A stretch of DNA of 64,000 bases from Gracilibacillus orientalis (GTDB taxonomy: Bacteria > Bacillota > Bacilli > Bacillales > Amphibacillaceae): contig NZ_FOTR01000004.1 in the NCBI RefSeq assembly GCF_900114645.1, positions 62,001-126,000 of the forward strand, given 5' to 3'. The position numbers were made by a program, and so were the translations under genes. Below, piece by piece: positions 11,892-19,548 of this stretch. The notes below the pieces were generated by a model, which worked only from the letters and a program-made list of their open reading frames with translations, did not search any database and had not been told where the DNA came from. Position 1 is the first letter of the stretch; every line of letters starts with the position of its first letter.

Positions 11892-14800
11892 ATGAGAGAA
11901 AAATGGACAAGCAGGCTGTCGCTTCTTGTTATCTTCTTGTTAATGTTTACTAATGTATTTACATATGTTCCTATTGCATATGCCAATACAGATAAAGAGG
12001 TTGAACAAGAAGAAGTTACAGCAGAAGAAAATGGAGAAGCTGATTCAAGTGAAGAACAGAATCAACTTTCATCTGAAGAAGAACCAACAACAGAAGAAAG
12101 CGCGAATTTAGCAGAAGAAAGATCTGAAGAAGATCCAACCTCAACAAAAGAAGAGCAGATACATAATGAAGAAACAGAAATGAAAAATGAGCAAGTAGAA
12201 GAAAAAGAAAAGACCAACGACGAAAAGGTAAGTACAGAACAGAAGCAAGAAAATTCTCAAGAAGAACAGACAAATACCGAAAAGGATGCTGAATCTTCAC
12301 AGGAAGAAACAATTACCGAAGAGAACGCTGAAAGCGCTAAATCTACTGACGAAGAAATGGAATCGCAATCCGCGATTGATTTTCAATCACTTCCAGCGCT
12401 GTTGCTAACTGAAATTATGCCAAATAATGATGGTACAGATAAGTTTGAATATTTTGAGATATACAATAACAGTGATCACGCCATTCTATTAGATTATTAT
12501 ACCATTGCATTGCGTTATACAAATGACAGCACTAATGATAGAGCTTTCAAATTTCCTGAAGTAGCGATTCCAGCTGGAGAAACTCTTGTTTTTTGGCGTA
12601 ATACTGAGCAACTCAGTGTAGAGGATTTTAATGCTCATTACTCAACTGAATTAACGGAAGATCAAATTGTTTCCTATCAGGGAACTGGTTTTTATAATAG
12701 TGGAAATCGTGGAGTAGTTATTAAAGATGATCACAAGGAAATTGTAACCAATAGTTACCTTGAAGAAGATATTGCATCCGGAAAAGTGATTTCATATCAA
12801 TATTCTACTGATTCTATTGAAATGGAACCATATCAGACGGTGGCCGAACCAACTCCTGGAATGTTGAACGAAGATCAAATTCCAGAAGAAAAAGTAAGGA
12901 CTGAAGAAATCGATAAGCCTGCTATCGGACATGCACCGGTAACGGAAGCACAAGAAGGTAAATCAATTACAATTGAAGCAGAATTATCAAGTGAAGAGGG
13001 TAAAGTAAGAGGAACTTTACACTATCTTTCAGAAGAAGGCTCATTTGAACAAGTGAATATGACTTTAGTTGAGAAAAATATGTATGAAGCAACCATTAGT
13101 AGTGATTATGTTACTGCTGGTGAGCTTGAATATTATATAACAGCAACAAATCCTCAACAGCGTACGCGTTATCCAGAAGATGACAGCGAAACATTTACCA
13201 TTGACGTAGCAGCAATTGATGAGTCAGAAGAGGAGTTTCAACATTATCCTCATTTACTTATCACGGAAGTTTCACCGAATACTGAAGGTGGAGGAACAGA
13301 CTACTACGAATATTTTGAACTTTATAATAACACCAATCAGACCTTATCCTTTAATCAATATGCTCATATTTATTATTACACCGATTCTGGACGGGAGATA
13401 CAATTTCAGGTTCCGGCAATAGAAATCGAGCCTCAGGAAACTCTTGTTTTCTGGTATAACAATGGAAACAATACACTAGAGGATTTTAATGCTCATTTTT
13501 CTACCAATCTAACAAGTGAACAAGTGGTAGAAGTAACCGATACAACATTTCCTGGTTTTGCAAATGGAGGAAACCGTGCGTTAATCCTAAAAGATGCATC
13601 AAATGAAGAAGTAATATATGCGGATTATGAAGGGGTAGATAATGATAATACGGGTGCTGTAATCCAATATAAATACCCGTATGAAGGAACAAAAATGACT
13701 AAGTTAGCAACTCTAGCAACTCCTACACCTGGAACAATTTTAGACGAACAGGTTCCTGCCGAGGTTGTCACAATAGAAGATCAAGAAGAAGATACATCTG
13801 CTCCAGAAATAACACATGAATCAGTATCTTCAGCAGATGCCTTTTCACCAGTTACTATAGAAGCAGAAGTAACAGATGACCTTGCGATTCCTGATGTTAC
13901 GGTTTTTGTGAAAAATAAAGATTCAGAGTATCGTAGTTTATCTATGACCACTCATTCAGATAATCCTGGAAAATATACGGCGGAAATTCCAGGCATATAT
14001 GTGGAATCTGACTTGACCTATTATATAGAAGCAACTGATGGTGTAAATACAGAAACAACAGAGGAATTCACCATTTCCGTATCGCAAAATGATGTGGATA
14101 TACAAGCATTACCATCATTATTGGTAACGGAAATCACCCCAGATTCTTCAAATGTTGGCTCCGCAGATGGCTATGAATTTATCGAAATCTATAATAATAC
14201 AGATCAAGACATACCTTTTGAGCATTATAAAATGCAGTATCGTTATGGCAGTGATCCGGCAAGTGATGTTATTTGGCCTTCTATTCCAGATGATGTTGTG
14301 ATCCCTGCGAATGAAACATTAGTATTTTGGATTATAAATGGGCAAAACAATGATAAGACGGTAGAAGATTTTAATACTAACTATGGATCTGATTTAATAG
14401 AAAATGAAAATATAGTGAGAATTGAGTCAGCAGGTATGGCAAACGGTAGTATGCGTGGGCTGATTATTGCTTCCAATATTGGTCATGAGTCTTCGATTGC
14501 TTATTATAATGATTTGGATACGACAGATGATACTATGCCGAATAAAGGGATTGTATATAAATATCCATCAAATGATTCGAATGTAATGGAAAAGATAAGT
14601 GCCGGTACACTTGATGCTACACCTGGTGTAGTGGAAGAATTTCAGGTGCCAGCAGAATCTGTTCAGGTAGAAGCAGATGAGACTTCACCAGTTATTGAAG
14701 ATGTAACGGGTATTGATGTCATTAATCAGACAGATGACTTAGATGTCACTGCTGAAGCGTCTGATCAGGAAGAATTAAAAACAGTTGCGATATATTATCG

Positions 14801-16751
14801 TACAAATGATAATCAAGAATATCAGAAAGCATTGATTGAAGAAGGAGAAGAAGAGGGAGTATTTTCGAACCGTATCTATGCACCTGAGATGATTGGCAAT
14901 ACAGAAATTGAATATTATTTTGAAGCTTCAGATGGAGTAAACACAACTAAAACAGCTACTGAGACGATAGATATAGAAAGTAATTTAGATGAAAGTCCGT
15001 TACGCTTAAATGTTGATGAAGGTCAGGTTTTAAATGAAACTTTTGTGCTAAAAGGAACGTCCAAAATGGATCAACCAGCTGATACAGAAATGCGTATTGA
15101 CGGAAAAAAGGTACCATCAAGTTATCAAGCATTAGAACATGAAGCCTATTTCGCTTTTGAAGTAAGTGGTATTAATACGTATTTCCAAAACGGTGTGACT
15201 ATTGGAGACGATGTTGTTCATATTTTTGATGACTGGATGGCTCAATGGGAGACTATCACAGTACCAGTAGATCCTGATAACTTAGCTATTGGGGAAAATA
15301 CGATTACGATACGTGCAGGTAATAAAGCAACTCCATGGGAAGGTGATCCTGGTGAAAACCGTGATGATTATAATCTTCGCAATGTACGTTTAGTATTGGC
15401 TGATGGTACGATTTTAACGGATCCCAACCATCAAGACCCTGACAATGTATTAGATATGGGTGATAATGGCACAGAACGAATTGCGGAACATTTTTCTTTC
15501 ACCATTTCAGAAGACCATGCACAATCAGTTGCTTATGCTTGGAATACTACTGAAACAGCAGATGGTGAGCACATGGTAAAAATAACTGATTCAGAGCAGA
15601 CAATCCAAGAAGAGGTGCTTGTTGATAATACTGCTCCAAGTATGGAAGCAACAGTTGAAAATGGACAAACATACAAAGGTATCTTTACGATTGATGCAGT
15701 GATAAATGACGAGGTTGCAGGGATGGACACTTACCTTGCTGAATTGGATGGGGAAGAGATAGAATTACCTTACGAAACATCGTCAGGTGCACTTGCTAGT
15801 GGTGAGCATACGTTAATTATTACGGCTACAGATCAAGTTGGAAACCAGGGAAGAGAAGAAATTACTTTTTATACTGTTGAAGAAAATCCGGCAGTACCTG
15901 AAAGCCAAACAAATGTAAAAGACGGTGATCCGACATTGAAAGTTCGCGTGGATGATCCAATGGGAGATAAGGTAGATGTTGGATTCTATCAAGGGTTCCA
16001 GTATAAACCTTCTGATACAGATTCTGTAGTCTCTTATCAAGGTGCTTCACCCGTAGAGCCGCCAAATACAAATGAAGTGACTGATTCAGTAGTTCTGGAG
16101 GATCAGGACATTTCACTAGTGTCTGAACAAGATGGCGAGTACTTAGTGACGGATGATGCGACGAAATTTCCATATCATCGTTTTGATGTGACACTAGATG
16201 ACACAGTCGAAGAAGATGATATCGTTGAGTTAAAGTGGAATGGTAATTCTCTAGAAGGCAGAAAAGTAACCATGTATGCTTGGAATATAGTGGAATCCAA
16301 GTGGGATATCATTGATTATCAAATTGCCGAAGAAGATGATTTTTCACTGGAAGGTAATGTAGAAGTTGCCTCGTACAGTAAAGACCATCAAGTTCAGGTT
16401 ATGATTCAAGATGAAATACCTGTTAATCAAGATGAATATGATTATACATTTGCCTGGATGTCAGATACACAATATTATTCAGAGAGCTATCCTTACATTT
16501 ATGAGCGCCAAACAGAATGGATTGCGGAGCAGCAAGAAGAAATGAAAATTGAGTATGTTATTCACAGCGGAGATTTAGTAGATGAAGCGGATCAGGAATA
16601 CCAATGGGACCACGCTGCTGAATACATGAGAACATTAGATGATGCAGAAGTACCTTATGGTGTTCTTGCTGGAAACCATGACGTATTACAAAAAACCGGA
16701 GACTATAGTGAGTACTATAAATATTTCGGTGAAGATCGTTTTTCCGATTAG
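11892..16751 (+). CDS. Surface protein with lamin-tail domains and truncated metallophosphoesterase (interrupted by amber stop)
   Basis: 1619 residues from the ATG after AAAGGAGGG to a TAG at 16749. A signal peptide (residues 1-31, ending in AYA) and a Glu-rich region (about 35-155) precede three lamin-tail-like domains, each opening with a LLxTEIxP-type motif and an E-(F/I)-x-YNN motif (starting near 168, 455 and 745). Ig-like segments follow. The last 110 residues are the first half of a calcineurin-type phosphoesterase: MSDTQ (about 1523), GDLVD (about 1557), GNHD (about 1594). Its remaining metal site and the wall anchor lie in the same frame beyond the TAG. As read, this product would be secreted, unanchored and catalytically incomplete. 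The strongly acidic composition fits a halophile's surface protein. Confidence 0.85.
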   Translation: MREKWTSRLSLLVIFLLMFTNVFTYVPIAYANTDKEVEQEEVTAEENGEADSSEEQNQLSSEEEPTTEESANLAEERSEEDPTSTKEEQIHNEETEMKNEQVEEKEKTNDEKVSTEQKQENSQEEQTNTEKDAESSQEETITEENAESAKSTDEEMESQSAIDFQSLPALLLTEIMPNNDGTDKFEYFEIYNNSDHAILLDYYTIALRYTNDSTNDRAFKFPEVAIPAGETLVFWRNTEQLSVEDFNAHYSTELTEDQIVSYQGTGFYNSGNRGVVIKDDHKEIVTNSYLEEDIASGKVISYQYSTDSIEMEPYQTVAEPTPGMLNEDQIPEEKVRTEEIDKPAIGHAPVTEAQEGKSITIEAELSSEEGKVRGTLHYLSEEGSFEQVNMTLVEKNMYEATISSDYVTAGELEYYITATNPQQRTRYPEDDSETFTIDVAAIDESEEEFQHYPHLLITEVSPNTEGGGTDYYEYFELYNNTNQTLSFNQYAHIYYYTDSGREIQFQVPAIEIEPQETLVFWYNNGNNTLEDFNAHFSTNLTSEQVVEVTDTTFPGFANGGNRALILKDASNEEVIYADYEGVDNDNTGAVIQYKYPYEGTKMTKLATLATPTPGTILDEQVPAEVVTIEDQEEDTSAPEITHESVSSADAFSPVTIEAEVTDDLAIPDVTVFVKNKDSEYRSLSMTTHSDNPGKYTAEIPGIYVESDLTYYIEATDGVNTETTEEFTISVSQNDVDIQALPSLLVTEITPDSSNVGSADGYEFIEIYNNTDQDIPFEHYKMQYRYGSDPASDVIWPSIPDDVVIPANETLVFWIINGQNNDKTVEDFNTNYGSDLIENENIVRIESAGMANGSMRGLIIASNIGHESSIAYYNDLDTTDDTMPNKGIVYKYPSNDSNVMEKISAGTLDATPGVVEEFQVPAESVQVEADETSPVIEDVTGIDVINQTDDLDVTAEASDQEELKTVAIYYRTNDNQEYQKALIEEGEEEGVFSNRIYAPEMIGNTEIEYYFEASDGVNTTKTATETIDIESNLDESPLRLNVDEGQVLNETFVLKGTSKMDQPADTEMRIDGKKVPSSYQALEHEAYFAFEVSGINTYFQNGVTIGDDVVHIFDDWMAQWETITVPVDPDNLAIGENTITIRAGNKATPWEGDPGENRDDYNLRNVRLVLADGTILTDPNHQDPDNVLDMGDNGTERIAEHFSFTISEDHAQSVAYAWNTTETADGEHMVKITDSEQTIQEEVLVDNTAPSMEATVENGQTYKGIFTIDAVINDEVAGMDTYLAELDGEEIELPYETSSGALASGEHTLIITATDQVGNQGREEITFYTVEENPAVPESQTNVKDGDPTLKVRVDDPMGDKVDVGFYQGFQYKPSDTDSVVSYQGASPVEPPNTNEVTDSVVLEDQDISLVSEQDGEYLVTDDATKFPYHRFDVTLDDTVEEDDIVELKWNGNSLEGRKVTMYAWNIVESKWDIIDYQIAEEDDFSLEGNVEVASYSKDHQVQVMIQDEIPVNQDEYDYTFAWMSDTQYYSESYPYIYERQTEWIAEQQEEMKIEYVIHSGDLVDEADQEYQWDHAAEYMRTLDDAEVPYGVLAGNHDVLQKTGDYSEYYKYFGEDRFSD

Positions 16752-17906
16752 CCTTATTATGGCGGTTCATATCTTAATAACCGTGGTCACTATGATTTAA
16801 TTTCTGTTGATGGAAATGACTATATTATGGTTTATTTAGGATGGGGGATCGATGATGAAGGTATTGCATGGATGAATGAAGTATTAAGTCAACATCCGGA
16901 CCGTACAGCGATCTTAACATTCCATGAGTATCTACAAGCGACTGGAACACGCCATCCACTTGGTGAAAAGCTATACCAGGAAGTAGTACTTCCAAATGAA
17001 AATGTTGTAGCTGTTTTATCTGGTCATTATCATGAAGCACAAACATTAGTTGATGAAATTGATGATGATGGGGATGGTAATCCTGACCGGACTGTCTATC
17101 AAATGTTATCAGACTATCAGGCAGGTCCAGAAGGTGGACAAGGATATATGCGTCTGTTACATTTTGATACGGAAAATAATCGGATTTTCGTGAATACTTA
17201 TTCACCATATATGGACGATTATAATTATTATGATACAGATGAATATCCAAATAAAGATGAATTTATGATTGATTTGGATTTAACAGCCCAAGAAAAGCGT
17301 GTTGCAACAGATAATTTTGCAGTTAATGTGTATACAAACAATGAAATTGGAACAGTAGAGGATGTAGCAAGCGGAGATACTGCTGAAGCAACATGGACCG
17401 ACCTTACGGAAGGAGAACAATATTCATGGTATGCAACGGTGTCTGATGATTATACAGGGGAAAGCCGATCACCAATCTGGTCTTTTGTAAAAGGTGAGGA
17501 TGATACTCCTGATGAAGAGATAGGAAATGGGGATGGCAATCAAGAGGAGGAGCAGCCTGGAAATGATCCGGATCCAAGGCCAGATCCAAGTCCAAGCCCA
17601 GATCCAGATCCACAGCCTAATCCAAATCCAGACCCAGATCCAAGACCAGATCAGGGAGAAGGAAATGATGAATCCGAAGATGGTCAGGGGTCTGAAAACA
17701 AGAATGATCAAACAACCGAGGAAGCAGAACAAAACAATAATCAACAAGATGAGAGTGATGCTGATCAAATTAACGCATCCAATAACAATAAAATCAATCT
17801 GCCTGATACAGCCACGAACATGTATCAGTATCTAGCCCTAAGTTTGGTTCTACTTCTATCTGGTACCATCTTATACGTTAGAACAAGAAGACAAAAAATT
17901 AAATAA
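16752..17906 (+). pseudogene. Same-frame 3' remainder of the surface metallophosphoesterase, with wall-anchor signal
   Basis: Directly after the TAG the same frame stays open for 384 codons. It starts with PYYGGSYLNNRGHYDL, the expected continuation of the phosphoesterase domain, then holds the last metal-ligand motif SGHYHE (codon about 1709 of the joined gene), an Asp-Pro repeat linker (17560-17665), an Asn/Gln-rich spacer and a sorting signal: LPDTA, a hydrophobic helix and the basic tail RTRRQKIK. No ribosome binding site or signal peptide precedes the internal ATG at 16827, so separate expression is unlikely. The unbroken frame and retained motifs imply a very recent nonsense change, readthrough, or a sequencing error. 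Confidence 0.8.
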
Positions 17907-18250: not shown

Positions 18251-18392
18251 TTCTTATCCAGAGAGACGGAGGGATTTGGCCTTATGATGTCTCAGCAACC
18301 AGTCATTTTTGACGTGGTGCTAATTCCAATAGATAAGAAGATTGACTTTAGTTTATGGTAAAGGCCTTCTTCTTAGAAGGTCTTTTTTTTAC
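18251..18392 (+). ncRNA. SAM-I (S-box) riboswitch with terminator
   Basis: The leader shows the S-box signature in order: CTTATCCAGAGAGACGGAGG, then TGATGTCTCAGCAACC, then GTGGTGCTAATTCCA, then AGATAAG, which closes P1 with CTTATC. A terminator (GGCCTTCT/AGAAGGTC, 18363-18382, then eight T) follows. In this family SAM binding favours the terminator, so the downstream MetE-like gene is expressed when SAM is scarce. Confidence 0.96.
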
Positions 18393-18441
18393 TGGGTAAG
18401 ATATGCTGACCAAATTCATTTTCATTATAAGGAGAGGTAGA

Positions 18442-19548
18442 ATGACAATAAAAACAGGAACAGCACCATTTCGAGCAGATCATGTAGGGAGCTTATTACG
18501 CCCGGAGAACTTACTGAAGGCAAGAAAGGATTTCGAGGAAGATAATATTACTAGAGAGCAATTACGTGATGTAGAAAACAAGGAAATTAAGCGGATCATT
18601 GATAAGCAGATTGAAGTAGGATTAGAGCTTGTTTCAGACGGTGAATTTCGCCGTCGTTTCTGGCACACTGACTTTTTAGAACATTTAAATGGGATTGAAG
18701 GGTTTGTACCAGAAGTAGGATATATTTTTAGTGGAGATGAAGAGACAGAACGATATAACATTCGAAATACTGGTAAAATCTCATTTAATCCTAATCATCC
18801 GTTTATCCAGGACTTCAAAGAATTTAATTCATTAGTAGGTGATCGAGCCGTAGCAAAACAAACGATTCCAAGTCCTAATCAGCTTTTTAATGAAGGAATT
18901 CGTGATGTTAGCATTTACCCGGACATTGAGGACTTTGCTGTTGATGTAATTCAAGCATATCGTGATGCAATTAAAGCATTTTATGAGGCTGGTGTGCGTT
19001 ATTTACAGTTTGATGACGTCTATATAGCAGGGTTGTCTTCACCTGATATTCCATTTAATGATGGTGAATTTTCACGGGAGTTTTTAATTGACCTAGCATT
19101 AAGAGTAGTCAATGGCGTGTTAGAAGATAAACCAAGCGATCTTGTTGTCACTACTCATTTATGTCGAGGTAACTATCGCTCGAATTGGGCCTTTGAAGGA
19201 AGCTATGATTTAATTGCACCAACCCTTTTCGCTAAGGAAAAAGTGGACGGCTTTTTCTTGGAATATGATGATGAACGTTCAGGTGGATTCAAGCCGCTGG
19301 AACATATCCCAAATGACGGAGCACGTGTTGTTCTTGGCTTGATTACATCAAAAAATGGTGAACTGGAAGACAAAGAACAAATTAAAGCACGAGTGGGAGA
19401 AGCATCAAAATACGTACCACTCGAGCAATTATGCCTAAGTCCACAATGTGGCTTTGCATCTACCCACCATGGAAATAAACTAACCGAACAAGACCAATGG
19501 AATAAACTCCAACACATTGTTCAAATTACGAGAGAAATCTGGAGTTAA
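18442..19548 (+). CDS. MetE-like cobalamin-independent methionine synthase family protein (YxjG/YxjH type)
   Basis: 368 residues from the ATG at 18442, which follows AAGGAGAGG; a longer frame to 18403 lacks a binding site. It matches the short, C-terminal-domain-only MetE family: FRADHVGSLLRP at the N-terminus, DGEFRR, FDDVY, a THLCRGN zinc-ligand motif and SPQCGFAST near the end, which carries the last zinc cysteine. MetE proteins transfer a methyl group to homocysteine to form methionine; the short paralogues lack the N-terminal half, and their methyl donor is less certain. The SAM-I riboswitch upstream places it in methionine/SAM metabolism. A broken paralogue lies at 2354-2653. Confidence 0.92.
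   Translation: MTIKTGTAPFRADHVGSLLRPENLLKARKDFEEDNITREQLRDVENKEIKRIIDKQIEVGLELVSDGEFRRRFWHTDFLEHLNGIEGFVPEVGYIFSGDEETERYNIRNTGKISFNPNHPFIQDFKEFNSLVGDRAVAKQTIPSPNQLFNEGIRDVSIYPDIEDFAVDVIQAYRDAIKAFYEAGVRYLQFDDVYIAGLSSPDIPFNDGEFSREFLIDLALRVVNGVLEDKPSDLVVTTHLCRGNYRSNWAFEGSYDLIAPTLFAKEKVDGFFLEYDDERSGGFKPLEHIPNDGARVVLGLITSKNGELEDKEQIKARVGEASKYVPLEQLCLSPQCGFASTHHGNKLTEQDQWNKLQHIVQITREIWS

Follow-up and report, generated by a model that had tools for sequence, protein, structure and literature searches.

Stop codons within reading frames that evolve under purifying selection are widespread in prokaryotes, and most of them were inferred to be short-lived and were assumed not to represent functional recoding (Belinky et al. 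2021, PMC7918605). In E. coli reporters, readthrough was lower for TAG than for TGA (PMC11126739). Large secreted enzymes with a C-terminal LPXTA or LPXTAT signal, anchored to the cell wall and associated with class D sortases, have been described in Bacillus cellulosilyticus (PMC3617157). The gene analyzed here lies in a 64,000-nucleotide stretch of the salt-loving bacterium Gracilibacillus orientalis (hereafter the window), from a 4.6-Mb draft genome in 29 contigs, whose closest relatives are other Gracilibacillus species. Like the nonsense alleles of Belinky et al., it has one stop in a constrained gene, apparently short-lived and one substitution away from a sense codon; however, their survey focused on stops shared by at least two species, whereas this TAG is private to one genome. 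Like the B. cellulosilyticus proteins, it encodes a large secreted enzyme ending in an LPxTATN signal, but the G. orientalis copy is interrupted.

The initial annotation reported a single in-frame amber codon splitting a gene of 2004 codons between its GNHD and GHYH motifs, and both observations were confirmed (Table 1). The TAG, which is codon 1620 of the 2004 (itself included), shares its frame with the upstream ATG and is the sole interruption in the 6-kb gene; the 384 codons past it stay open in the same frame up to the terminal TAA. For the eight other TAG-ended open reading frames of at least 150 codons in the window, the next in-frame stop follows within 10 codons. Since, in addition, the downstream part aligns with orthologues, the open stretch past the TAG is beyond what chance would give. 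Read through the stop, the product consists of a signal peptide (recognized by eye), an acidic linker, three lamin-tail domains (PF00932, profile match), a calcineurin-like phosphoesterase domain (PF00149, 56.8 bits) with conserved metal motifs, a Pro/Asp-rich linker and the sorting signal. The metal-binding roles of DTQ (motif I) and GD (motif II) are those that we presume from knowledge of the metallophosphoesterase fold.

Table 1. Features of the interrupted gene (positions in the window).
Feature	Position	Strand	Remarks
Interrupted phosphoesterase gene	11892..17906	+	ATG 11892 to TAA 17904-17906; full-length orthologues in G002, G015 and G009
Segment up to and including the amber codon	11892..16751	+	1619 aa
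In-frame TAG	16749..16751	+	Every relative examined has a sense codon here, most often Lys
Segment past the stop: remaining phosphoesterase domain, linker, sorting signal	16752..17906	+	
DTQ, presumed metal motif I, before the stop (retained)	16464..16472	+	Invariant alignment columns
GD, presumed metal motif II, before the stop (retained)	16569..16574	+	Invariant alignment columns
GNHD motif, before the stop (retained)	16671..16682	+	Sequence; invariant in alignment
FHE, with a presumed metal-ligand His; absent from the truncated product	16920..16928	+	Sequence; His invariant
GHYH motif, lost on truncation	17022..17033	+	Sequence; alignment
LPDTATN sorting motif, then membrane helix and basic tail; absent from the truncated product	17799..17819	+	NF058670

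A wall anchor had also been proposed beyond the stop, described as LPxTG-like. The anchor is present, but the label had to be changed: the motif belongs to the LPxTATN class and, in the product read through the stop, matches the NCBIfam model sorting_LPXTATN (NF058670) with 39.8 bits against a cut-off of 32, with the hydrophobic helix and basic tail characteristic of LPxTATN wall anchors. About 20 LPxTATN signals and two sortase genes were found genome-wide, indicating that an anchoring route exists. So many signals alongside only two sortase genes make up a rich wall-anchored set that resembles the one in B. cellulosilyticus (PMC3617157). Downstream of the gene, a SAM (S-box) riboswitch (18251-18339, plus strand, 73.4 bits) was detected just 5′ of a methionine-synthase-like gene (18403-19548), which is ordinary for Bacillaceae.

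Comparison of the orthologous codon in relatives, suggested as a check of the interruption, revealed a sense codon in every relative examined and a stop at this site in none. The site is a variable position in the alignment, with Lys in 17 of the 36 aligned relatives, Gln in nine, Arg in four, Asn in three, and Tyr, Glu and Ser in one each. The nearest relative compared has a syntenic orthologue, 93% identical over the region and with a sense codon at the site, and the three nearest orthologues carry the Lys codon AAG, one substitution from TAG. No stop within the region was found in any of the best 22 non-self matches (60-93% identity). The orthologues in G002, G015 and G009 are full-length single open reading frames of 1959-1980 aa, and in the first two genomes the locus is syntenic, with the neighboring genes present and full length. 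Two genomes initially flagged as stop carriers, G092 (TAA) and G090 (TGA), were rejected, as each of these codons simply terminates a short homologue that has no linker or anchor. Separately, the open frame that holds the G001 orthologue (C62:21650-22711; apparently G. boraciitolerans) spans just 611 aa, so that the long N-terminal region of this orthologue is either disrupted or wrongly assembled. The gene is patchily distributed in the genus and is missing from several nearly complete genomes, which indicates that it is dispensable.

A base-calling or assembly error in the draft genome, with the true gene intact, is an unlikely explanation, although it would fit a TAG that is private to one assembly and differs by a single base from the codon of the relatives, in a gene with no other interruption. 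Current assemblies seldom contain isolated substitution errors. Moreover, two more conserved genes with single stops were found in a background survey of this genome that covered about 0.9 Mb, sampled in stretches, and they fit a normal nonsense background, even if an error cause shared by all three is possible. Raw counts of long post-stop extensions, which mostly reflect neighboring genes in the same frame, were excluded from this survey, and only orthologue-confirmed cases were retained. One is an aldo/keto reductase gene (L203, C6:75493), uninterrupted in four congeners, and the other a gene for an AraC-family regulator (L184, C14:289107, minus strand), uninterrupted in congeners; each has one in-frame TGA, across which it matches its own Pfam family. 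Thus, single in-frame stops are ordinary background in this genome and are not specific to amber, in agreement with the prokaryote-wide survey (PMC7918605), and no TAG-specific excess of interrupted genes was seen in the sample. Two further loci were noted in passing: a paralogue of the AraC regulator at C14:539908 is listed with an internal TAA, and an apparent gene at C14:231218 (L181) is divided in two by a TAA, and its second half ends in a RES-like stretch.

Coding constraint was found on both sides of the stop. In comparison with G002, dN/dS was 0.088 for the part of the domain past the stop and 0.082 for the part before it; pairwise values among the intact relatives were 0.06-0.08. The linker past the domain, which shows more change but is repetitive and poorly aligned, was left out of this analysis. 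Relaxed constraint past the stop, which is expected only for an old allele and does not define a recent one, was not seen. On the lineage leading to the window, changes polarised with two outgroups comprised three nonsynonymous and eight synonymous ones in the domain past the stop. Neutrality along the whole branch was rejected (binomial p about 0.001, from small counts), and any unconstrained period covered at most about the final quarter of the branch, a rough estimate from the same small counts. The retained constraint implies that the stop is very recent, or that it is a sequencing error, or that the full protein is still made; low-level synthesis of the full protein and a sequencing error predict it equally well. 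Among the options offered by the initial annotation, a very recent nonsense mutation is the best supported: the TAG is private to the genome, a single base change separates it from the sense codon of the nearest relatives, and the sequence around it shows no decay. We therefore consider it probable (roughly 78%) that the TAG is an ordinary, very recent nonsense mutation, i.e. a loss-of-function allele at the strain level, in a dispensable gene for a wall-anchored metallophosphoesterase.

The initial annotation also considered programmed or suppressor-dependent readthrough, which found no support in any of the tests that were run. Selection for a minority of full-length anchored enzyme, made by suppression or leaky readthrough, would account for the constraint past the stop, would be helped by the many residues tolerated at the site, and would have parallels in the prevalence of purifying selection on in-frame stops (PMC7918605), but the authors of that study infer a short life and no recoding function for the majority of these stops. 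A covariance search and ARAGORN, the latter applied to tRNA regions, identified no CUA anticodon among about 50 tRNAs, a draft set whose incompleteness (e.g. no tRNA-Cys is listed) leaves a small opening. A pattern search for the CTA anticodon yielded no new tRNA, its matches being ordinary Arg or Ser tRNAs out of register, or no tRNA at all. Matches to the pyrrolysyl-tRNA synthetase (PylS) model stayed below the cut-off, as in most control genomes; the predicted RNA fold 3′ of the stop was unremarkable (z -1.37), and no Rfam element was found at the stop site. A change of the genetic code or a generally leaky TAG was rejected, as TAG works as a normal stop in the eight other TAG-ended open reading frames of the window and release factor 1 is intact in the genome. 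Together with the lack of the TAG in relatives and the finding that the other interrupted genes carry TGA, these results make selected readthrough very improbable. A more elaborate version, in which the TAG is kept as a low-level switch and rare readthrough adds a small anchored, active fraction to a secreted inactive form, is more doubtful still.

It is barely conceivable that the locus consists of two genes, with the 359-aa open reading frame at 16827-17906 translated on its own. This frame does have an ATG at 16827; however, that codon is internal to the conserved domain, 25 codons past the stop, no ribosome-binding site is apparent in the sequence, and the codon is not credible as a restart. 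The product would have no signal peptide, which would make its sorting signal useless, and the orthologues are single open reading frames.

Under the preferred reading of a recent nonsense mutation, translation would end at codon 1620 by normal termination with release factor 1. The exported 1619-residue product would keep DTQ, GD and GNHD, but would be devoid of the three conserved active-site histidines of FHE and GHYH, and the loss of the LPDTATN sortase signal would preclude covalent attachment to the wall. As judged from these lost motifs and from knowledge of the fold, the truncated product should be catalytically dead and not linked to the wall, as had been suggested. In a confident predicted model of the domain (mean pLDDT 90.5), the TAG site is flanked by a helix on one side and a strand on the other and is not part of the metal motifs. 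The model matches structures of Rv0805 and purple acid phosphatases, likewise calcineurin-like metallophosphoesterases (PF00149), but with identity of about 15% and TM-scores of roughly 0.55-0.67, too low for the substrate to be inferred from these enzymes. A sequence search of solved structures with the phosphoesterase domain gave no match.

If readthrough did occur, wall-anchoring of this enzyme would be controlled by a stop codon, but no result obtained here points that way. The value of the finding is mainly one of annotation: the gene is to be labelled as interrupted, and it adds one case in which a gene with a single stop is still under constraint.
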